Assembly: GCA_018816815.1 (NCBI GenBank)
Contig: JAHIVD010000018.1
Span: 1-33,201 of the forward strand
Reading direction: 5' to 3'
Length of the DNA: 33,201 bases
From: Patescibacteria group bacterium
Lineage (GTDB): Bacteria; Patescibacteriota; Microgenomatia; Daviesbacterales; UBA10151
Each line of letters starts with the position of its first letter. The first letter of the stretch is position 1. Below are positions 14,201 through 31,756 of this stretch, piece by piece. Below the pieces are notes generated by a model that saw nothing but the letters and a program-made list of their open reading frames with translations, was not told the origin of the DNA and did no database searches. A program made the position numbers and the translations under genes.

Positions 14201-15181
14201 TTACCAATCTCTATCTTGATAAGTCTTGGGGATAAGTGTTTCAGACATAGAATCACCACTATAAATGCATTTGATGGCCTCTGCTAAAAGTTTAGCAACA
14301 GAAATAATAGCAACCTTCGGATTCTCTTGAATTTCCTTTTTAAGAGGCACTGTATCTGCTATATAAACTTTTTCTAAAGAAGAATCATTAATTCTTTGTA
14401 TTGCTGGATCAGAAAATAATCCGTGAGTAGCAGCAACAGAAACACTTTTTGCTCCTCTTTCTTTAATTAATTTTGCAGCATCACAAATTGTTCCTGCCGT
14501 ATCAATCATATCATCAACAATTAACACATCTTTATCCTCAACTTCGCCGATGATACCTAATATGTGACTAACATTTTTTTTCATTACATCCCTCTCTTTA
14601 AACACTATAGCAACTCCGTCAGCATCTAAAAGATTCGCATAAAATGTGGCTTTGGGAACACCACCTTTGTCAGGAGAAGCAATAATTAAATTTGACGGGA
14701 AACGTTTGCGAAGTTGCTCCAAGAGAGAATAACTGCTGTATAGATTATCCCAGGGAATTTCTACAAATCCCGGCTGCTGCTCACTGTGAATATCAATCGT
14801 TAATATTCTATCTGCTCCTGATGATTCAATTAATCTTGCTATTAAAGATGCTGATATGGGAACCCTGGGTCTATCTTTTCTGTCCTGTCTGGAATAGCCA
14901 AAATAAGGAATAATCGCTGAAATCTCTGAAGCGGATGATCTTCTTGCTGCATCTATAATCAACAAAAGTTCCATGATATTTGAATCAGTTGGCGGACAAG
15001 TTGGCTGTATTATAAAAACATCTCTTTTCCGTAAATTCTCGGGGATAATAATTCTTTTCTCGCCGTTAGCAAAAACAGTTACAGTTTCATCAATATTTTT
15101 TCCCAAAATTTCAGCAATATCTTTGGCAAGTTTAAGATTTGCAGTTCCTGTTAAAAGCACAAAACCATTTGTATTTGGCAT
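14201..15181 (-). CDS. prs: Ribose-phosphate pyrophosphokinase (PRPP synthetase)
   Basis: 326 aa. Makes PRPP from ribose-5-phosphate and ATP, the substrate of PurF. Seen are FANGEKRI, the YFGYSRQDRKDRPRVPIS flexible-loop/ATP region, TIDIHSEQQPGF (metal/ATP His), SPDKGGVPKA, and the PRPP-binding loop LIVDDMIDTAGTI. Length is slightly above the usual ~315. It follows purC by 227 bp and has its own consensus-like promoter, so it can be made independently of purine operon II. It lacks an SD. Confidence 0.96.
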   Translation of the reverse strand: MPNTNGFVLLTGTANLKLAKDIAEILGKNIDETVTVFANGEKRIIIPENLRKRDVFIIQPTCPPTDSNIMELLLIIDAARRSSASEISAIIPYFGYSRQDRKDRPRVPISASLIARLIESSGADRILTIDIHSEQQPGFVEIPWDNLYSSYSLLEQLRKRFPSNLIIASPDKGGVPKATFYANLLDADGVAIVFKERDVMKKNVSHILGIIGEVEDKDVLIVDDMIDTAGTICDAAKLIKERGAKSVSVAATHGLFSDPAIQRINDSSLEKVYIADTVPLKKEIQENPKVAIISVAKLLAEAIKCIYSGDSMSETLIPKTYQDRDW

Positions 15182-15408: not shown

Positions 15409-16377
15409 CTAAAAAACAATTTCCTTTAAGTTATCTTTAATTCTTTTTTTTACATTTTTTGTTAAATCCGGCACAAATTTTTTTCCGATGATTTTTTCAT
15501 AAATTCCCATATAAAGCATGCTCATTTTAGCAATAAATTCTGAAGGCATCTTAGGAATCTTTCCTTTTCCTGTAAACCCTTGTTTTTTAAACCAAATCCG
15601 AAGGGGTTCTTTATCATTGCTTTCCGGTTCTTTACCAAGAGAAAATCTTTTTTTATAAGTCTTTTTGATCCAATATCTGGATGAATCAGGAGTATGGATT
15701 TCATCAACTAAAACTAACTCTCCATTTTTATCAATACCAAACTCATATTTGGTGTCAACCAAAATTATTCCAGCTCTGTCGCAAATCTTTTGTCCTCTTT
15801 CAAAAAGCGCCAAAGTTGTCTCTTTCATTTGTTTCCAAATTTTAGGAGAAACAATTTTCCGTTTAATTATCTCATCCCCTGTTAATCTTTCATCATGTCC
15901 CTGTCCTGCTTTAGTAGTTGGAGTAATAATCGGTTCCGATAATTTCTGATTTTTCCGTAAACCTTCCGGAAACTTAATCCCATAAATAACCCTGTTTCCT
16001 TTTTCATAAGAACCCCAAATCGACGTATCAGTTACTCCGGTAATATAACCCCTAACCACCATTTCAATAGGAATAATTTTACAGCTTCTAACAAGCATTA
16101 CATTGGGGTCAGGAACTAAAATCAAATGATTGGGAACAATATCAGCAGTTTTACTAAACCAGAATTCAGAAATCCGGGTAAGCACTTGTCCTTTAAAAGG
16201 AATGTAACCCAGCACCCGGTCAAAAGCGGATTGCCTATCCGTAGTAATAATTACTCTTTTATCACCCATTGTATAATTATCACGGACTTTACCTTGATAT
16301 CTTTTACCAAGGTTTGTAATCATTACTTTCTTAAGAGTAAAAGGAATGTTTTCAATAATTTTTTGCCTGCTAATCAT
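15409..16377 (-). CDS. purC: SAICAR synthetase (phosphoribosylaminoimidazole-succinocarboxamide synthase)
   Basis: 322 aa, the longer form of the family (yeast Ade1-like length, against ~240 in E. coli). It joins CAIR and aspartate with ATP to give SAICAR. Motifs are YQGKVRDNY (ATP-binding start), [44 protein letters not shown], and [14 protein letters not shown]. The gene begins on the base after the purE stop, so purE and purC abut exactly. It is the last gene of purine operon II before the prs promoter. Confidence 0.96.
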
Positions 16378-16857
16378 TTATTTTTTAAGATTCCTTGATT
16401 TTTCTTCCACACCTTTAGCTAACTTTTTCTTGTATGCTATCAGTTTGTCTTCCAGATTTTTATCGCTGGTTGCTAAAATTTGTACAGCCAAGATTCCTGC
16501 ATTCAAAGCACCATTGATGGCAACTGTTGCCACCGGAATCCCTGGCGGCATCTGCAAAGTTGATAAAAGTGAATCTATCCCCTCCAGCGCTCCGGCTTGT
16601 ATCGGAACTCCAATGACCGGCAAGGAAAACTCTGCTGCAACTGCTCCTGCCAAATGAGCAGCTAGTCCTGCACCGGCAATAATCACTTTTACCTCATCTG
16701 TTTTTGCTTTTTCTATTAATTTTCTTGTCCTGTCCGGTGATCTATGAGCGGAGGAAATTGTCATTTCATATTCAACCCCGAATTCATCCAAGACTTTGCA
16801 TGCACTGCACATCACCCCTAAATCAGAATCCGAAGCAGCGATAATTAAGACTTTCAT
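16378..16857 (-). CDS. purE: PurE, AIR carboxylase / N5-CAIR mutase (class I-like)
   Basis: 159 aa. [24 protein letters not shown] and [30 protein letters not shown] are class I features. The usual GSxSD reads AASDSD, keeping Ser and Asp but losing the Gly. Class I PurE rearranges N5-CAIR made by PurK, yet no purK is in either purine operon. Either purK is elsewhere or this enzyme uses CO2 directly. It overlaps purB by 4 bp and abuts purC, so the three are one translational block. Confidence 0.93.
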
Positions 16858-18245
16858 GACGTTATTTTCTTTATTTGTCCTGCCAAAGTCAATACCTTTT
16901 CTTTTGCGTTACCAATATGATTTTTTGCATCCAATATTTCTGAAACTTCTATTGGTTTTAGATATTGTCCAATGTTAGGGTCTTCTGTTAATAAATCTTT
17001 CATTGGGTTGGGATCACCATTTTGAATTATCTCCCATGCCTTCATTGAAATTTCTCTTAAAACTTCATGCATCCTCTGTCTGTCTGCACCCTTTTTAACA
17101 GCTTCAATAATAATCCCTTCGCTTGCTGAAAAAGGCCAGTAGATTTCAAGATTTTTATTTATTTTTCTTTCATTAATGATTAATCCGTTAACAATACTAA
17201 TACTGGAAATTAACATTTCATCCAGACTTAAAAACATTTCAGGAATAGCTGTTCTCCTGTTTGCTGAATCATCTAAAGTCCGCTCCAAAAGCATATTGGA
17301 GGCATTATCCCATGCTATCCGGGACAGATTAACCACTAACCTACTAAGCGAACATATTTTTTCAGCTTTAATGGGATTTTTCTTAAAAGGCATAGCTGAT
17401 GAACCAACCTGTAAACTGCCAAAAGGTTCCTGCCACTCACCAATAGCAGGTGACTGCATTATTCTTAAATCAAAAGCGAATTTATTCAGAGACTGGGCAA
17501 TTGAAGCTAACAAATCAGCAATCCAAACTTCTATTTTCCTCGGAGCAGTCTGATTGGTTATTTCTGCTGCCTTAATTCCTAAATCGCTCATGATTTCATC
17601 TTCCAACTCTTTTGCTCTTTTTTTATCTAGTAGCGCTACAAAGCTGGCTCCGGTTCCAACCGCTCCTTTTATCCCTTTACCTGCTAAATTCTTTTTAATG
17701 AATTGCAAAAACTCTAAATCCATTAATAGATCCTGCGAATAAAAAGCAAATCTATAACCTAAAGTTGTTGGTTCTGCCGGCTGTAAATGGGTATAACCCA
17801 TACAAGGAAGTTCGGCATACTTTTCCAGTTTCAAAGAAAACGCAATCAACACCTCTGAAAGTCTTTTTTCAATTATGTTAAGTGCCTTTTGAATCCTGAT
17901 AGTCTCGGCATTATCAGATATATCCATACTTGTAGCGCCAAGGTGAATTTTGCCGCCGCCGATTTTAGCTTTTTCTGCAAATTCTCTAATTGCTGCAACT
18001 ACGTCATGACTGATGTCTTTTTCTATTTCCCAAATCCTTTTTATATCTATATTATTCTGATTTTTTTCCAAATCCATGAGTTCTTCCTTGGAAACCAAGC
18101 CTTTTTTGTGTTCTGCCCGGGCCAGTGCTACCCAAATTTTTCTCCATAATTTGTATTTGTTTTCTTCAGAGAAGATTTGGCGCATTTTTTCCGAACCGTA
18201 ACGCCATGAAAACGGACTTTGATAATTTAAATAATTACTATTCAT
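16854..18245 (-). CDS. purB: Adenylosuccinate lyase
   Basis: 463 aa, fumarase/aspartase superfamily. It acts twice: SAICAR to AICAR plus fumarate, and adenylosuccinate to AMP plus fumarate. Seen are GATSMDISDNAE, GYTHLQPAEPTT (catalytic His), and the signature loop SSAMPFKKNPIKAEKI with its flexible-loop Ser. Length is normal. It follows purH by 40 bp with a weak AAAAGGA close to the ATG, and overlaps purE by 4 bp (ATGA). Confidence 0.96.
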   Translation of the reverse strand: MNSNYLNYQSPFSWRYGSEKMRQIFSEENKYKLWRKIWVALARAEHKKGLVSKEELMDLEKNQNNIDIKRIWEIEKDISHDVVAAIREFAEKAKIGGGKIHLGATSMDISDNAETIRIQKALNIIEKRLSEVLIAFSLKLEKYAELPCMGYTHLQPAEPTTLGYRFAFYSQDLLMDLEFLQFIKKNLAGKGIKGAVGTGASFVALLDKKRAKELEDEIMSDLGIKAAEITNQTAPRKIEVWIADLLASIAQSLNKFAFDLRIMQSPAIGEWQEPFGSLQVGSSAMPFKKNPIKAEKICSLSRLVVNLSRIAWDNASNMLLERTLDDSANRRTAIPEMFLSLDEMLISSISIVNGLIINERKINKNLEIYWPFSASEGIIIEAVKKGADRQRMHEVLREISMKAWEIIQNGDPNPMKDLLTEDPNIGQYLKPIEVSEILDAKNHIGNAKEKVLTLAGQIKKITS

Positions 18246-18285: not shown

Positions 18286-19821
18286 TCAATGTCTAAATGC
18301 CCTCCTCCCGGTAAATATCATAGGGATTCCGGCTTTATCTGCTGCCGCAACTGATGCTTTATCATTCACTGATCCACCTTGCTCAACAATAGCCCCAATT
18401 CCATATTTTTCAGCTAATTTCACACTATCATCAAATGGGAAAAAACTATCACTGATTAAAATGCCACCTTTTACTTTTGCCCCGGCCTGCTCCAAAGCAA
18501 TCTTGGTTGCCCCAATCCTGGAAGTTTGACCCGAACCAATGCCTCGCGTCATTGGTATATCTTTATCAACCACCAGTACTGAATTAGATTTAACTGATTT
18601 AACACACTTAAAACCAAATTTCATTTGTTGTAATTGTTTTTTACTGGGTTTTTCTTTTGTAACTACTTTCCAACTAGCAAAGCTTTCTTCTATACCATCA
18701 TCAAAATCCTGAAGCAGCAGCGCTCCGGCAAAATATTTAAGATCCCATTTTTCACTTTTTACCTTCGGAATTTCTCCAAACGTATAGATCCCCATGCTTT
18801 TCCTGACTTTTTTAAGCAGCGCCAAAGCATCACCGGTAATTGCCGGAACTGCCACAATATCAACATTACTCTCTCTTTCGTTTTTAAAAGTAGCAATAAT
18901 TTTTGCACTGGATAGATCCATTGGTTTATTCAAAACTACAACACCGCCAAAAGCAGAGATAGGATCTGCTTTGACTGCTCTATCTAGAGCTTCCTTTACA
19001 TCTGATCCTGTAGCAACCCCGCAAGGACTTAGGTGTTTAACAACACAAGCAGCGCTTTCATTAAATTGCCTAACAGTTTCCAGTCCTGTTTGTATATCAC
19101 CGATATTTGTTCCGGACAGTTCCCGACCCCAGAGATGCTTTAACTGACCAAGAGGTGAATTGGTTTTGGGCATTAAATACAAAACCCCTTTTTGATGCGG
19201 ATTTTCTCCGTAACGCAGGATATTTGTTCTTCTAAGGGGAATTGTGATTTCTTTTGGATACTTTTCTTCTGAAAAAAAACTACCTATCTGAGAGTCATAA
19301 AAAGATAAATGATAAAAAGCTCTTGCTGCTAACTCTTTCCTCGTTTGCGCTGTCATTTCTTTATTTTCCATAGCCGAGGCAACTTTTCCATAATCACCCG
19401 GGTCTACCACTACTGTGACATTTTCATAATTTTTGGCAGCTGCCCTAATCATTGTTGGACCGCCTACATCTATTGTTTCAACGCTAGGCCTTTCTTCAAA
19501 TGGATAAAGATTGCTGACAACCACATCAATTTGAGGGATTTTTAATTCCTTTGCTTTTTTTGCGTGACCTGGATTTTTACGGTCAAATAAAATACCGGAC
19601 TCAATTTGGAAACTAATAGTTTTCATCCTACCGTCAAATGAATTTCTGGGATTACCGGTAATTTCCTCAATTGGGATAGCTTTTATTCCATTTTTTTTCA
19701 AAACATCTAACGTACCGCCTGTTGAAATAATTAGATATCCTAATTCTTTCAAAACTTTAGCAAAATCAACTATACCAATTTTGTCATATACACTAAGCAA
19801 AGCATAACGTTTAGAATTCAT
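18286..19821 (-). CDS. purH: Bifunctional AICAR transformylase / IMP cyclohydrolase
   Basis: 511 aa, full length. The N-terminal MGS-like IMP cyclohydrolase domain (about 1-190) has SVYDKIGIVDFA, STGGT, VSNLYPFE, VDVGGPTMIRAAAKN and YGENPHQ. The C-terminal AICAR formyltransferase has the catalytic Lys-His in VVKHLSPCGVATG, SAFGGVV, VKSNSV, IGSGQTSR, SDSFFPF, and ends IFTGRRAFRH. In the cyclohydrolase domain the usual KTLHPKVHGGIL reads KTISFQIESGIL, keeping the Lys but losing the HPKVHGG block. The start overlaps purP2 by 4 bp. Having both PurH and two PurP-type proteins in one operon is unusual, since either can in principle formylate AICAR. Confidence 0.95.
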   Translation of the reverse strand: MNSKRYALLSVYDKIGIVDFAKVLKELGYLIISTGGTLDVLKKNGIKAIPIEEITGNPRNSFDGRMKTISFQIESGILFDRKNPGHAKKAKELKIPQIDVVVSNLYPFEERPSVETIDVGGPTMIRAAAKNYENVTVVVDPGDYGKVASAMENKEMTAQTRKELAARAFYHLSFYDSQIGSFFSEEKYPKEITIPLRRTNILRYGENPHQKGVLYLMPKTNSPLGQLKHLWGRELSGTNIGDIQTGLETVRQFNESAACVVKHLSPCGVATGSDVKEALDRAVKADPISAFGGVVVLNKPMDLSSAKIIATFKNERESNVDIVAVPAITGDALALLKKVRKSMGIYTFGEIPKVKSEKWDLKYFAGALLLQDFDDGIEESFASWKVVTKEKPSKKQLQQMKFGFKCVKSVKSNSVLVVDKDIPMTRGIGSGQTSRIGATKIALEQAGAKVKGGILISDSFFPFDDSVKLAEKYGIGAIVEQGGSVNDKASVAAADKAGIPMIFTGRRAFRH

Positions 19822-20933
19822 GTTAATATTTGATCTATCTTGTTTTCTTTTAAAGCTTGTTTTATCTCAATTGCTACTCTTTTTCCCATACTTAAATTTT
19901 GTCCGAATAAATAACCACTATAAGGGGTGGCAAAAATCCCGGGACTACCCGGCATTCTCGGAGAAACATCAAACACAATTATTTCTTTTTTAGGAGGACC
20001 GGCAGTTATCATAGCCTGCAAACCAAATGGACCTATGACACCAGGTTTAAATAGTTTTTGAGTAGCTGTTACAAATCTTTCTCCCATACCAAATGCGTTT
20101 TCAAGGAGTGACTCCAGAACAGTTACAGCAATATGCCCTGCCTCTTCATATTTAATATCAACTTTTTTAATCAGTTTTTCTTCATAAATAGACGGTAGTT
20201 TTGTCAAACCCTCTATATTGGTCTGCCTTCTGGTATCAGTTCCTATTAGCTCAAGCCTCTTGTTAACCGGTGAATAAAAGAAATTAAAGTTCACTTGCAC
20301 TCCTACAATAAATTCTTCTATTACTGCTGATTTTATTTGCTCCTTGGTAAACTTACCCAACCCCAAACCCTGAGCAATACCTATTTTATATTCTTCGAAA
20401 GAGCACGCAAAGAAAAATGCCCGCTCAAAGCCTCTTGTCTTTTCCAAAATTTTCACAATACAAAGCCTGTCAATATCTTTTGAGTCTTTAAATTGTTTTG
20501 GGTATCTGATCTTTGCACTGTCTAATAAATCGTACTGATTCGGCTTAACAGTTCGTTCTTCTGCTTTTAATAAAAACCTATTCCCAAACATTGGCACTTT
20601 GAATTTCTTTTCAATAGCATTGTAATCATTTATATAAACCTCAAAAGACCTGTGAGGAATAAATATACAATTTCTTTTAATTAACTCTTTTTGAATTTTT
20701 GGTTTTAGAATATCTGCAAATTTATTCAATACTACTGTCTCATCTACACAACCGAACAAAGCTTGTCCTGTGCTTTCCGAAGAATCACTTTTATAATATT
20801 TTGCATAAGTTTTATCTCTGCCTTTTTGCGCAATTACCAATGTCTTAAAACCCTCATCTTTTGCCCCGCGGCAAACATCTAGGGCTGAATGGGAACCTAA
20901 AACAGCAATAGTGTAATCTTTTATGGTTTTCAT
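19818..20933 (-). CDS. PurP-like ATP-grasp protein, divergent second paralog
   Basis: 371 aa and clearly related to the protein encoded next to it and to archaeal PurP (formate- and ATP-dependent FAICAR synthetase). Shared blocks are VLGSHSALDVCRGAKDEGF, PMFGNR, IEEFIVGVQVNFNFFYSP, LIGTDTRRQTNIEGL, VTVLESLLENAFGMGERF, GPFGLQ, and a C-terminal LSMGKRVAIEIKQAL. Differences from PurP1 fall at conserved places: PHGSF becomes PHRSF, the Gly-rich VKSYGAAGGKGYF segment becomes VKILEKTRGFERAFFF, and EISARIVAGTN becomes DVSPRMPGSPG. It has an insertion near 48-65. A regulatory, assembly or altered-substrate role is possible. PurP1/PurP2 paralogs are known in some archaea. No SD is seen; the gap from purP1 holds an 11-bp tandem duplication. 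Confidence 0.8.
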   Translation of the reverse strand: MKTIKDYTIAVLGSHSALDVCRGAKDEGFKTLVIAQKGRDKTYAKYYKSDSSESTGQALFGCVDETVVLNKFADILKPKIQKELIKRNCIFIPHRSFEVYINDYNAIEKKFKVPMFGNRFLLKAEERTVKPNQYDLLDSAKIRYPKQFKDSKDIDRLCIVKILEKTRGFERAFFFACSFEEYKIGIAQGLGLGKFTKEQIKSAVIEEFIVGVQVNFNFFYSPVNKRLELIGTDTRRQTNIEGLTKLPSIYEEKLIKKVDIKYEEAGHIAVTVLESLLENAFGMGERFVTATQKLFKPGVIGPFGLQAMITAGPPKKEIIVFDVSPRMPGSPGIFATPYSGYLFGQNLSMGKRVAIEIKQALKENKIDQILT

Positions 20934-20934
20934 T

Positions 20935-20956
20935 TTAATATTAGTTTAATATTAGT
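20935..20956 (-). repeat. Exact 11-bp tandem duplication between purP1 and purP2
   Basis: TTAATATTAGT occurs twice in direct succession (20935-20945 and 20946-20956), making up nearly all of the 24-bp spacer. In minus-strand sense it places TAATAT 4 nt before the purP2 ATG, possibly a weak internal -10. Confidence 0.6.
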
Positions 20957-20957
20957 T

Positions 20958-21974
20958 TTAATCCAATACCTCCTTTAATCTATTCAGGTTTATTGCATTC
21001 TTTATCTCTCTTGCAATACGTCTTCCTGTTGACATTGGTTCATCGTATAAAAGATATGCATAAGGTGAACCGTTTATAAAACAATTCGTTCCTGCCACAA
21101 TCCTGGCAGAAATCTCTATTACATATATTTCTTCAGTTGAGGTAATAATGGTTTCCAAACAAAAAGGTCCAAAAAGACCTTTAGGGGAGATAAGTTTTTT
21201 AGAAACCTCAACAACTCTTTCTGCCATAGAAATTGCTTCTGGTAAAAGCGATTCCCTGATAGCCAGGGGAATATTGGCAACAACTTCAAAAGACGGCTCA
21301 ATATTTAAACCTCTTTGGTTTTTCGCAGGGATTCTACCTAGTGAATCAACGTTTGTTTCATATCGTTTGTCCAAACTCATCAATTCCACCTTTTTAGTTA
21401 AAGGTGAATAGAAGAAATGGAAATAAACAGGAACTCCAATAACATATTCCTGAACCATAAACTTCTCTTCGCTGAAACTGGTTAATTTGGCATCAAACTC
21501 TTTTTGATTTCTGGCAGTAAAGTAGCCTTTGCCTCCTGCTGCCCCGTATGATTTAACAATAACTGACCGATCAATTGTATCTCCTCTTTTAAAGAGATGC
21601 GGAACTTTAACACCTGCTTTCTCCATCCACTCCCTTTGCATTTTGCGGTTTTCTTCCCAGTTCAAAACTGCTTTATTACCAAAGTATGGAGTTTTCATTT
21701 TTTTATTTTCGTCCATACCTAGATAAGTCACAAATGAACCATGCGGAATTATAATGGCATTTCTTTTTAAAAGCTCTTTTTCTAATTTAGGAAAATCCTG
21801 CCATGTATCAATTTCTAAAACTCCGTCAATAAAATTACTGTAAGATTTATAAAGCGGGTTTCTGCTTTTCGTTGAAATTACTGCAGTTTTAAAACCTTCA
21901 TCTTTTGCGCCTTTGAGGATTTGCAGCGCAGAATGAGAACCTAGAGTTGTTATCGTGTAGTTTATGATTCCCAT
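20958..21974 (-). CDS. purP: Formate-dependent FAICAR synthetase (PurP), archaeal type
   Basis: 338 aa with strong likeness to characterised archaeal PurP, which makes FAICAR from AICAR, formate and ATP without folate. Motifs are TTLGSHSALQILKGAKDEGF, IIPHGSFVTYLG, TPYFGNKAVLNWEEN, ATP-grasp VIVKSYGAAGGKGYF, YVIGVPVYFHFFYSPL, LDKRYETNVDSLGRIPA, NIPLAIRESLLPEA, GLFGPFCLE, and EISARIVAGTNCFINGSPYAYL. The catalytic landmarks appear complete. It is first in purine operon II, read from a consensus promoter (TTGACA-17-TATAAT) ending 5 nt from the ATG. PurP is a hallmark of archaeal purine synthesis, so this gene, perhaps together with its paralog, may have come by transfer (inference). Codon and base use look like the neighbours', so any transfer is old. 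Confidence 0.92.
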   Translation of the reverse strand: MGIINYTITTLGSHSALQILKGAKDEGFKTAVISTKSRNPLYKSYSNFIDGVLEIDTWQDFPKLEKELLKRNAIIIPHGSFVTYLGMDENKKMKTPYFGNKAVLNWEENRKMQREWMEKAGVKVPHLFKRGDTIDRSVIVKSYGAAGGKGYFTARNQKEFDAKLTSFSEEKFMVQEYVIGVPVYFHFFYSPLTKKVELMSLDKRYETNVDSLGRIPAKNQRGLNIEPSFEVVANIPLAIRESLLPEAISMAERVVEVSKKLISPKGLFGPFCLETIITSTEEIYVIEISARIVAGTNCFINGSPYAYLLYDEPMSTGRRIAREIKNAINLNRLKEVLD

Positions 21975-21979
21975 ATCTT

Positions 21980-23977
<1,998 letters not shown>

Positions 23978-25521: not shown

Positions 25522-26303
25522 AACTTCTCTTTCACGGATTCCACAATATTTTCAAAAAGCGGCAGGCCGTCTACTCTAACTCTACCGCGTCTCCAATTAG
25601 GATGTTGCTGCTCCCTTACAAAACATTCAGGATGCGGCATAAGCCCTAAAATCCTGCCTGTTGTGTCGCTCACTCCTACTATAGCATTCAAAGAGCCATT
25701 AGGATTATCCGGATAGTTTTGGGTAGAATTTCCCTTTCTTCTCACATACCTAAAAGCTACCAACTTCTGCGTCTCTATTTCTTTCATAGTTTTTTCGCTT
25801 GCCATGAATTTTCCCTCACCGTGTGCAATCGGATACCAAATAATTCCTTCAAGTCCTGTTAAAAATTTGCACTTACTTGATCTTTCAGCTTTTACTTTAA
25901 CCCATCTGCATTCAAAATGGCCTGAGTCATTATTAGTTAAAGTTACATCCATCTTACCAATATTCCTAAAAGGCAAAAGACCAGTCCGCACCAAAACTTG
26001 AAAACCATTGCAAACTCCAAGTACTGCCGTATCTTTCCTTTCGATAAATTTTTTCATTTCATCTCCTAAAAAAGATGTAAGTTCTATAGCTAAAATCTTT
26101 CCGGAAACTATATCATCTCCATAAGCAAACCCACCTGGCAAAGCAAGGATCTGATAATCACTCATTTTCCTTAGTCCTTTTCTTAATTCATTAACATGGA
26201 CTATCTCCGGATCACCGCCTGCAATCCCAAAAGCAAAAGCCATTTCTTCATCTCTATTTGTCCCATCTGCCTTTAAAACTAAAACTTTAGGTTTATTGTT
26301 CAT
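25518..26303 (-). CDS. purQ: FGAM synthase glutaminase subunit
   Basis: 261 aa class I glutamine amidotransferase that feeds ammonia to PurL. Seen are LALPGGFAYGDDI, nucleophile Cys in LGVCNGFQVLVRTGLLP, FECRWVKV, IAHGEGKF, and the catalytic His-Glu in GLMPHPECFV. It is slightly longer than B. subtilis PurQ, with a loop (HPNWRRGR) near the end. It overlaps the HAD gene upstream and guaA downstream, each by 4 bp. Confidence 0.95.
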   Translation of the reverse strand: MNNKPKVLVLKADGTNRDEEMAFAFGIAGGDPEIVHVNELRKGLRKMSDYQILALPGGFAYGDDIVSGKILAIELTSFLGDEMKKFIERKDTAVLGVCNGFQVLVRTGLLPFRNIGKMDVTLTNNDSGHFECRWVKVKAERSSKCKFLTGLEGIIWYPIAHGEGKFMASEKTMKEIETQKLVAFRYVRRKGNSTQNYPDNPNGSLNAIVGVSDTTGRILGLMPHPECFVREQQHPNWRRGRVRVDGLPLFENIVESVKEKL

Positions 26304-26947
26304 AAATCTTGAATCTCCTTTATACTAAGTTCTTCAAAGCTATCTATTATTTTATCTGCTTTTTTTAACTCTTCCTTTTTATGTGTAGTAGTAATAGCTA
26401 TACACTTCATACCTGCAGCTTTTGCTGCTTGAATACCTTTTACAGCATCTTCAATAACAACACAATCCCGAGGATTTACTTTAAGTTTGTTTGCTGCTAA
26501 TAAAAAAATATCCGGAGCAGGCTTACCATTTTTAACTTCCTCAGTACATACTACTGCTTGAAATTTTTCCCTAATCCTCAGAGTTTCAAGAACCAGATTA
26601 ATGATTCTTAATGGAGCAGATGATGCCAATCCCAAAATAAATCCATTCTTTTTCAATATATTTATAAACTTCAGAGAACCTGGAATTGTTTGTATCTTAT
26701 CCTTTGCCAGTTCTTGAAATAATTCCCATTTCTCATCTTCGACTTTTTGAAGATCAAAACTACAATTAAACCTCTTAAACAAAGTCTTGAACATTACTCT
26801 ATCAGGGACCGCATTGAATTCACTAAGAATCTCTTGAGGTGAAATCTGAATTCCATATCTTAAAAGAACTTTACTTTCAGCTTCACAATGAATAGATAGA
26901 GTATCAGAAATTACCCCATCCATGTCAAAAATAATTGCATTGATCAT
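26300..26947 (-). CDS. HAD-superfamily hydrolase (beta-phosphoglucomutase/phosphatase-like)
   Basis: 215 aa HAD with a C1 helical cap. Motif I is IIFDMDGVISDT (nucleophile Asp8, acid Asp10), motif II LGLASSAPL, motif III Lys in KNGKPAPDIF, and motif IV VVIEDAVKGIQAAKAAGM. It sits between purL and purQ, whose products form one complex, and is joined to both by ATGA overlaps, so it is made in step with them. Phosphatase or phosphomutase activity is expected from the family, but the substrate is unknown. A nucleotide or sugar-phosphate intermediate of the pathway is a fair guess (inference). Confidence 0.9.
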   Translation of the reverse strand: MINAIIFDMDGVISDTLSIHCEAESKVLLRYGIQISPQEILSEFNAVPDRVMFKTLFKRFNCSFDLQKVEDEKWELFQELAKDKIQTIPGSLKFINILKKNGFILGLASSAPLRIINLVLETLRIREKFQAVVCTEEVKNGKPAPDIFLLAANKLKVNPRDCVVIEDAVKGIQAAKAAGMKCIAITTTHKKEELKKADKIIDSFEELSIKEIQDL

Positions 26948-29778: not shown

Positions 29779-31130
29779 TTTTTCCTTCCTTGACTCCGCT
29801 CAGGCCTTCGACTCCGATGTTCAGATTCAAAAAGGCCTTGCATCCGATCAACGTCTCTTGCACCAATATCTGTTCTGTAATGTAAATTGTTTCCTTCGAT
29901 ATTCACCAGTTTCATCGCTTTATATGCTTTCCCTCTCGCTTCCAAAACATCTTTTCCGTCACCAACAATATATAATACTCTTCCGCCACTGACCACATAG
30001 TCCTTGTTTGCTTTTTTAATGCCTGCCCCGTAAACTTTAACTTCAGACTTGATTATTTTATCAATTCCTAAAATCTTTTTACCCTTAACTAATTGATAAT
30101 CAACCGGATAACCTTTTGCTACTGCCGCAACTGCTACTCTTACTTTTTTATCAACTTTAATTTTTAGTTTTTTTAGTCTACCCTTGGCGATTTCATTTGA
30201 CAAACTTAAAAAATCATTTTTTATTGAGGGTAGTAGTACCTGTGCTTCCGGATCTCCCCATCTGGCATTAAATTCAATAACATACACTTTGCTGTCAACT
30301 ACAATTCCACCCAAATATAAAACTCCTTTATATGGGCGTCCCTCAACCATTAAACCGTTAATGGTTTTTTCAAAAATCTTCTTCACTTGTTTTTGGATTT
30401 CTTTATCAACTATCATTGGACTAGAGACACACCCCATTCCGCCTGTATTTTCTCCCAAATCCCCATCATTTACTCTTTTATGATCTTGCGCAAAACCAAC
30501 TATATGAAAGTCTTTTCCGTCACATAACGCAAAAGCGGAAAATTCTTCACCAACCAACCATTCCTCCAAAAGAAAAGTTTCTCCGGCACTGCCAAATTTT
30601 TGCATTGCTTTTACCGCATCTATTGCTTCTTGGGCGCTGGGTGCAGGAATCACTCCCTTGCCTGCTGCCAAACCCGAGGCTTTAACAAACCATTTTAAAT
30701 CTTGATTTTTCTTAATAAAATTTATTCCTGCTTTTGTTGAGCGGAAAACATAAAATTTTGGAATCGGAATTTCATATTTAACCATGAATTCTCTTGCCCA
30801 AGCTTTATCCCATTCAATTTGTCCGGCTCTTTTAGTAGGACCTACTACATTAATCCCTTTAGCCAATAGCTTATCTGTTAGTCCTGCCTCAACAGCATTG
30901 TCCTGAGCTACATCTACCAAATCAATTTTATTTTCCTTACAAATTCTCAAAATTTCCTTGATACTTGTTGTTTTTAAATGCTGGTATGTGATTACAGGTT
31001 TTTTAACATTAATCTGCATTAAATCATTGCCAGGAACTGCTAGGATTTTTTTTACATTTCTACTTTGTGCATACTTATCAACCAATGCTGCTCCTCTTCC
31101 GCCACCGTCAATTACCAAAACAGTTTTCAT
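29775..31130 (-). CDS. purD: Phosphoribosylamine-glycine ligase (GAR synthetase)
   Basis: 451 aa ATP-grasp enzyme making GAR from phosphoribosylamine, glycine and ATP. The N-terminal VLVIDGGGRGAAL replaces the usual GGGGREHAL. ATP-grasp motifs WFVKASGLAAGKGV, LLEEWLVGEEFSAFAL, DGDLGENTGGMG, and FNARWGDPEAQVLLP are intact. The family normally ends near HYRTDIG. Here about 18 extra residues (FESEHRSRRPERSQGRKK) follow, encoded by a GGAGTCGAAGG-type dispersed repeat. It overlaps purN and purL by 4 bp each. Confidence 0.96.
   Translation of the reverse strand: MKTVLVIDGGGRGAALVDKYAQSRNVKKILAVPGNDLMQINVKKPVITYQHLKTTSIKEILRICKENKIDLVDVAQDNAVEAGLTDKLLAKGINVVGPTKRAGQIEWDKAWAREFMVKYEIPIPKFYVFRSTKAGINFIKKNQDLKWFVKASGLAAGKGVIPAPSAQEAIDAVKAMQKFGSAGETFLLEEWLVGEEFSAFALCDGKDFHIVGFAQDHKRVNDGDLGENTGGMGCVSSPMIVDKEIQKQVKKIFEKTINGLMVEGRPYKGVLYLGGIVVDSKVYVIEFNARWGDPEAQVLLPSIKNDFLSLSNEIAKGRLKKLKIKVDKKVRVAVAAVAKGYPVDYQLVKGKKILGIDKIIKSEVKVYGAGIKKANKDYVVSGGRVLYIVGDGKDVLEARGKAYKAMKLVNIEGNNLHYRTDIGARDVDRMQGLFESEHRSRRPERSQGRKK
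29784..29824 (-). repeat. GGAGTC(G)AAGG dispersed-type repeat forming the purD tail
   Basis: Minus strand CTGAACATCGGAGTCGAAGG is followed by CTGAGCGGAGTCAAGGAAGG, an imperfect tandem of about 20 nt. It encodes the extra PurD C-terminus, and its last AAGGAAGG lies 5 nt before the purL ATG, where it acts as a Shine-Dalgarno. Its GC content is higher than the surroundings. Sequences of this style are dispersed in many environmental genomes (general recollection, not checked). Confidence 0.7.
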
Positions 31131-31756
31131 GATTCCTCCTTAAGTTTTTGACAGTCAGATGAACATAGTTTCACTAAAACATCTACATATAACTGATTCT
31201 CTTTATTTTTTAACCTTGCATATAAAGATTCAACGCTATCTCTGGATAGAACTTTCTCAAAACATCGTCCCAAAACAGGACCAAAATCTGTTTCATATGT
31301 AATAATGTGAACAGACGAACCAGCATATGTAGCTTTATTATCAAGGAAATTCTGCAAAGCCTTGTCAGTAAACATTTTTTTATTCCATAATCCATTTGTG
31401 CCATCTGGATTTTTTACAACACCATCAATTGTATCCGGAATAAGGCCCGGGTGCAGATTAAGAATTCTATTTTGATATGCACCTATCAATCCATCAGTCA
31501 AAAATTGTCTCCAACCGGCAAGTACAGCAATATCAATATTGTATTTTTTTAAAAGCAGCAATAATTTTTCTTTTTCTTGATTAATTTCTGTTGGGATACA
31601 ATATTTTCTCGCATACTCCAATCCAACTGCATCTTCCTTGTCACTAATAACAACAGCTATGCGACCGTTTATTTTCCCTGAATTTACCCCGTCAATGATT
31701 GCCTGAAGATTTGTTCCTGTACCAGCATTTGATATTAAAATAGCAATTCTTTTCAT
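31127..31756 (-). CDS. purN: GAR formyltransferase (folate-dependent)
   Basis: 209 aa. It transfers a formyl group from 10-formyl-THF to GAR. ISNAGTGTNLQAII (phosphate loop), VVISDKEDAVGLEYA, VLAGWRQFL, and LNLHPGLIP (catalytic Asn and His) are present, as is the Asp in YETDFGPVLG. Between LHPGLIP and the SSVHIITYE strand it has an insertion of about 19 residues relative to E. coli PurN (TIDGVVKNPDGTNGLWNKK). This implies a folate supply, in contrast to the formate-using PurP in operon II. It overlaps purF and purD by 4 bp. Confidence 0.93.
   Translation of the reverse strand: MKRIAILISNAGTGTNLQAIIDGVNSGKINGRIAVVISDKEDAVGLEYARKYCIPTEINQEKEKLLLLLKKYNIDIAVLAGWRQFLTDGLIGAYQNRILNLHPGLIPDTIDGVVKNPDGTNGLWNKKMFTDKALQNFLDNKATYAGSSVHIITYETDFGPVLGRCFEKVLSRDSVESLYARLKNKENQLYVDVLVKLCSSDCQKLKEES

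Follow-up and report, generated by a model that had tools for sequence, protein, structure and literature searches.

Tandem PurP-like genes beside a full-length purH in a patescibacterial purine operon: a possible second route from AICAR to IMP

PurPI, PurPII and PurH at the locus

The DNA considered here is a 33,201-nucleotide stretch of contig JAHIVD010000018.1 (hereafter the window) from a tiny groundwater patescibacterium (‘Ca. Daviesbacteria’; Microgenomates). The source metagenome-assembled genome (MAG; G000, in which the contig is C58) comprises 1.08 Mb and is 96% complete, and its named relatives are likewise ‘Ca. Daviesbacteria’ of the Microgenomates, Patescibacteria. Three genes lie consecutively on the minus strand. 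PurPI (20958..21974, 338 amino acids (aa)) is a cluster I PurP-like protein and the predicted formate- and ATP-dependent ligase of 5-aminoimidazole-4-carboxamide ribonucleotide (AICAR), that is, a synthetase of its formylated derivative FAICAR; PurPII (19818..20933, 371 aa) is a cluster II PurP-like protein devoid of the ATP loop, the predicted partner of PurPI and a candidate FAICAR cyclase (inosine monophosphate (IMP) cyclohydrolase); PurH (18286..19821, 511 aa) is a full-length bifunctional AICAR formyltransferase/IMP cyclohydrolase. The two PurP genes are 24 bp apart, and PurPII overlaps purH by 4 bp. Downstream of purH the operon continues with purB, purE, purC and a prs-like gene, and purA is divergent. 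A preceding reading of the window from its sequence only had described a tandem PurP-like pair adjoining a full-length PurH in one operon; the open reading frames (ORFs) lie exactly where it placed them and their Pfam domains agree.

Archaeal PurP-like proteins have been divided into clusters Ia and Ib, with an ATP loop and Asn258, and cluster II, with a loop two residues longer, His258 and unknown function (Brown et al. 2011, PMC3261824). Both proteins of the window carry the two PurP domains of Pfam, DUF1246 and DUF1297, and their closest solved structures are archaeal PurPs. PurPI, which has the DUF1246+DUF1297 ATP-grasp architecture and the PurP fold, keeps H27, S94, N258, S266 and R314 (M. 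jannaschii numbering) together with the loop GAAGGKGYF, where the P-loop motif (K/R)GG(K/R)G reads AGGKG, with Ala at the first motif position. The sequence-only reading would have fallen with the loss of the ATP and formyl/AICAR residues from PurPI, and these are in place. The characterized FAICAR synthetase of M. jannaschii (MJ0136, 2R7K-2R7N, cluster Ia) resembles PurPI in domains, fold (TM-score 0.82), loop and substrate residues; identity, however, is 44%, and M. jannaschii has a single PurP and PurO, whereas PurPI adjoins a cluster II partner. The nearest solved relative is the cluster Ib protein PF1517 of P. furiosus (2R84-2R87; 52% identity, 352 bits), although it comes from a host without any known IMP cyclohydrolase and was reported to be inactive alone. 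PurPI scores below the NCBIfam PurP equivalog cut-off (PRK13278, 397 against 580 bits), which lowers certainty without excluding membership, as these cut-offs look to have been set for close relatives of the seeds. We regard it as very probable, judging from domains, residues and phylogeny, that PurPI is a formate-dependent AICAR ligase.

PurPII is of a different kind. Its loop, EKTRGFERAFF, is two residues longer and no longer an ATP loop, and a His occupies M. jannaschii position 258, so that it lacks both the P-loop and the Asn258 by which FAICAR synthetases are recognized. H27, S94, S266 and R314 are retained, and the AlphaFold2 (AF2) model matches the fold of M. jannaschii PurP (TM-score 0.79); the score falls below the NCBIfam PurP equivalog cut-off (276 against 556 bits). 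AF2 models of both proteins have predicted local distance difference test scores of 75-76 and find their best PDB matches among archaeal PurPs. His258, the loop longer by two residues and the company of a cluster I gene make up the published cluster II signature (PMC3261824), and PurPII carries all of it. It is by this signature that PurPII is assigned to cluster II and likened to archaeal members such as PF0421 and AF0256, the tree showing its separation from cluster I only. In that tree, which contained two archaeal sequences (MJ0136 and PF1517), the PurPI and PurPII groups are separated with support of 100 and both archaeal proteins fall on the PurPI side, PurPII standing on a separate branch. 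No bacterial sequence breaks this division: Asn258 occurs in 116/116 PurPI and His258 in 104/104 PurPII, and the loop stretch measures 17 residues in the former (116/116) against 19 in the latter (104/104). Other fixed differences from PurPI to PurPII are Y229R, E230Q, E310D and T319P/N320G. In a few Patescibacteria a PurPII-like gene was seen with no PurPI detected (G278 (L186/L292), G435 and G577); the copy in G278 is without His27 and may be decaying.

PurH has the Pfam domains MGS and AICARFT_IMPCHas and scores above the NCBIfam equivalog cut-off NF002049 (516 against 402 bits) and below that of TIGR00355 (447 against 528). The residues of the cyclohydrolase domain (KT, NLYPF, DVGGP, AAAKN) are present, as are those of the formyltransferase domain (LRYGENPHQ, KHLSPCG, SNS, GQTSR, FFPF and the terminal RRAFRH). 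The Lys-His pair, which the sequence-only reading had also called intact, and the other AICAR-contacting residues are preserved. In the PurH of relatives the checked residues are conserved wherever the domain is covered, except for one Phe in an alignment gap (G020). A clean division of labour with a degenerate formyltransferase domain in PurH was considered and rejected, since the residues are intact in every PurH checked. The protein thus resembles other bacterial PurH (e.g. 4EHI, 3ZZM) in its full length and catalytic residues, but differs in a shorter loop after NLYPF, in carrying GRMKTISFQ where GRVKTLHPK is usual, and in its PurP neighbour.

As the window encodes PurN and another part of the genome encodes FolD, a pool of 10-formyltetrahydrofolate (10-formyl-THF) should be available, and missing folate was rejected as a reason for the presence of PurP. 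Formate-THF ligase (FTHFS) was not found in the window genome. Its distribution in the genus is patchy, with 7/11 congeners carrying it (G001, G003, G005, G007, G009, G010, G011), six of which also have PurP; the family sample gave no FTHFS outside those congeners.

Distribution of the pair with and without PurH

Among the 56 nearest genomes PurP occurs in 20, all of which have PurH. Exactly two PurPs are found in 19/20, and in the remaining one (G009) a contig end cuts the locus, with a PurPII fragment still there. The search of relatives for purP-purP-purH synteny that had been proposed with the sequence-only reading was fruitful: nearly all pair-bearing members of the window’s family share the order purA|PurPI-PurPII-purH-purB-purE-purC, so the arrangement of the locus is not due to chance. 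PurH is retained in 24/25 PurP-bearing genomes of this family. Of the purine proteins in this family, PurPI shows the highest conservation, with a mean identity of 83%; PurH and PurPII both stand at 74%. PurPI and PurPII are neither a decaying nor an accidental pair, and in all likelihood they work as one unit.

The pairing extends well beyond the family. In a phylum sample of 287 genomes, genuine PurP matches occur in 29; two copies are present in 28 of these, and PurH in 27. A class sample of 374 genomes divides into 36 with the pair and PurH, 27 with the pair only, 29 with PurH only and 282 with neither; exactly two PurP copies are present in 59/63 of its PurP-bearing genomes, and a few show one copy. 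In other classes purH is often found beside or near PurPI-PurPII, in differing orders. In Levyibacteria and one other lineage (L137, L155, L160, L134, L103) PurPI and PurPII flank purH, so that the three genes are interleaved in another way but are still linked. Purine operons of Eremiobacterota also hold the PurPI-PurPII pair; these bacteria were considered as a PurH-less lineage and rejected as such, because 19/20 keep PurH elsewhere in the genome. Curtissbacteria were likewise dismissed as PurH-less once the IMPCH profile revealed a split PurH (L053 / G037:C25 26888-28535), consisting of a diverged IMP cyclohydrolase-like ORF of 223 aa and a formyltransferase of 342 aa; Curtissbacteria with the split PurH also carry the PurP pair. 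The recurrence of the arrangement in several Patescibacteria lineages, and of the pair in Eremiobacterota, does not sustain the earlier view that it is uncommon. The transfer origin suggested at the same time fares no better: a tree with two archaeal sequences does not show a recent transfer from archaea, and a recent single transfer is unsupported, since the pair occurs in many families and also in another phylum. The viral contigs searched held no relative of the locus, leaving a phage or viral link unsupported.

Genomes with the pair and no PurH are of particular relevance to its function. At least 90% completeness is reached by 14/27 of the pair-only genomes in the class sample, and PurH is lacking in 11/11 PurP-bearing genomes of family f23. 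Six named PurP-bearing genomes (Daviesbacteria, Shapirobacteria, two Gottesmanbacteria, Roizmanbacteria and one further bacterium) gave no match to PF01808, to the PurH2/IMPCH profile or to PurO, the PurO search covering a handful of pair-only genomes. In a Daviesbacterium (L102, taken from its contig coordinates to be the 98% complete G436) the order is purA|PurPI-PurPII-purB, with PurPII running directly into purB and PurH gone from its usual place. A member of family f23, G369, has the pair along with purF, N, D, M, L, Q, E, C, B, A and guaA; no PurH/IMPCH match was found in 1.14 of its 1.31 Mb, and PF01808 was negative over the whole assembly. In these genomes, given the lack of such matches, the pair, or the pair with an unknown factor, must carry AICAR to IMP. 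In G369, purD and purM seem to be fused, with one 812-aa ORF (C1 251427-253862) giving matches to both.

An earlier account presents PurP as confined to archaea (PMC4177761), and we found no report in the open-access literature of a bacterial PurP pair, of an operon joining such a pair to purH, or of pair-only bacterial lineages. The statement that a full PurH is generally missing from archaea with PurP goes too far, as Methanosarcinales possess a full PurH and two or more PurPs of clusters Ib and II (PMC3261824). The co-occurrence of PurH with clusters Ib and II is therefore not new in kind. Methanosarcinales resemble the window in having the same three proteins per genome, PurN and the use of folate; they differ in being archaea for which no purPI-purPII-purH operon is described, whereas in the window the genes form a bacterial operon whose order and promoter are conserved. 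Crenarchaeota and Pyrococcus have clusters Ib and II without PurO or PurH2 (PMC3261824), and by analogy the pair-only bacteria repeat their ‘missing cyclohydrolase’.

Possible roles of the pair

All of the activities discussed here, including formate use and FAICAR cyclization by PurPII, are predictions from sequence. The pair is probably a two-gene, formate- and ATP-dependent alternative to PurH. The operon would then hold two parallel modules leading from AICAR to IMP, with PurPI formylating and PurPII cyclizing, a reading to which we assign even chances as a whole. In one module PurH would formylate AICAR with 10-formyl-THF and then cyclize the product. In the other, PurPI would bind ATP and AICAR and ligate formate to yield FAICAR, and PurPII would close the ring to IMP, perhaps on product handed over by PurPI. 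That PurPII would act after or together with PurPI is suggested by the loss of its ATP loop with most of the FAICAR-contacting residues kept, among them those contacting the formyl and phosphate groups. Ring closure requires the carboxamide to attack the formyl group, and the invariant His258 of PurPII, which takes the place of the carboxamide-contacting Asn of PurPI, would be the candidate catalytic residue. Cyclization of FAICAR seems the most economical role for PurPII, and we put it forward tentatively, at a little below even chances. The same caution applies to its wider form, in which PurPII would represent an unrecognized IMP cyclohydrolase family and the pair a complete substitute for PurH, serving as the sole system in several Patescibacteria and in Crenarchaeota and beside PurH in Daviesbacteria. 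Redundancy in the window may then cover both final steps, beyond formylation. The redundancy of the two PurPs with PurH supposed by the sequence-only reading stands insofar as PurP and PurH coexist and PurPI keeps its residues, but PurPII is no duplicate: with its ATP loop and Asn258 lost, AICAR formylation cannot be assumed for it.

Several points weigh against two complete modules. For neither PF1517 (cluster Ib) nor PF0421 (cluster II) did tests reveal AICAR formyltransferase activity, according to PMC3261824. PurPII is accompanied in many genomes by a PurH whose cyclohydrolase is intact (36 of the class sample, 27/29 PurP-bearing genomes of the phylum sample and 19/20 Eremiobacterota), where a second cyclase would be superfluous. 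The AF2 models do not resolve the region of position 258 well, single absences in MAGs may be gaps, and a cyclase of another, unrecognized family could fill the place of PurH. In the main rival explanation, which we consider somewhat unlikely, the two PurPs would form a single heteromeric, formate-dependent AICAR ligase, in which PurPI is the catalytic subunit and PurPII has a structural or regulatory part without catalysis, with PurH cyclizing here and an unknown cyclase doing so in the pair-only lineages. The near-strict pairing, the missing ATP loop of PurPII and the retention of PurH in most PurP-bearing Eremiobacterota and in nearly all those of the window’s family agree with such a heteromer, and PF1517 would be expected to be inactive alone if it required a partner. 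It demands, however, one extra unknown enzyme in every pair-only lineage, and a pure scaffold would hardly require that His258 and Asp310, both in the substrate site, be invariant.

The sequence-only reading suggested a condition-dependent choice of formylation, with PurH working when folate one-carbon units are plentiful and PurP when formate and ATP are. Both formyltransferases are indeed intact in the window, and in a genome with FolD where FTHFS was not found, formate would reach purines mainly via PurP. Yet FTHFS and PurP occur together in six congeners, the single operon offers no apparent separate transcriptional control, and neither PurPII nor the pair-only genomes are explained; we deem this choice unlikely. 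Quite improbable is a different reaction altogether, such as that of another formate or ribonucleotide ligase, linked to purines by coincidence. The scores under the curated PurP cut-offs and the frequent coexistence with PurH would suit it, but the checked AICAR-contacting residues are kept in PurPI, the synteny with purine genes holds in several bacterial lineages, and the pair-only genomes have otherwise near-complete pathways.

The FAICAR-to-IMP step in many archaea and the role of cluster II PurP have been questions since at least 2011. The three states found among close relatives (pair with PurH, pair only and PurH only) amount to natural gene-loss experiments, and the bacterial PurPs, presumably not heat-adapted, make the role of cluster II directly testable.

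Promoter and neighbouring purine genes

Upstream of PurPI, on the minus strand, lie a -35 element of exact consensus, TTGACA (22003..22008), and, at a spacing of 17 bp, a -10 element, TATAAT (21980..21985), which leaves 5 bp to the start codon (ATG) of PurPI. Of 18 relatives, nearly all have a TATAAT-like box about 5 bp ahead of this ATG, and most have a TTGAC-type -35 element at a similar place. Such proximity of the -10 box to the start codon implies that the PurPI transcript would be leaderless or nearly so.

The divergent purA (22002..23339, plus strand; NF002223, 566 bits, cut-off 402) probably has its true start at an ATG near 22038, and its divergent position is conserved. On the minus strand beyond purH lie purB (16854..18245; TIGR00928, 406 bits, cut-off 326), purE (16378..16857; TIGR01162, above cut-off), purC (15409..16377; NF009251, 425 bits, cut-off 371) and the prs-like ribose-phosphate pyrophosphokinase gene (14201..15181; Pfam Pribosyltran_N/Pribosyl_synth), whose position is kept in relatives. 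Elsewhere the window contains purF, purN, purD, purL, purQ, guaA and a plus-strand purM, so that together with the operon it holds a clustered, near-complete purine pathway. Of these, purN (31127..31756, minus strand) encodes the folate-dependent glycinamide ribonucleotide formyltransferase (Pfam Formyl_trans_N; TIGR00639, 112 bits, under the cut-off of 150). Between purL and purQ lies a gene for a haloacid dehalogenase (HAD) phosphatase of the beta-phosphoglucomutase-like type (26300-26947), which is present in some relatives only.

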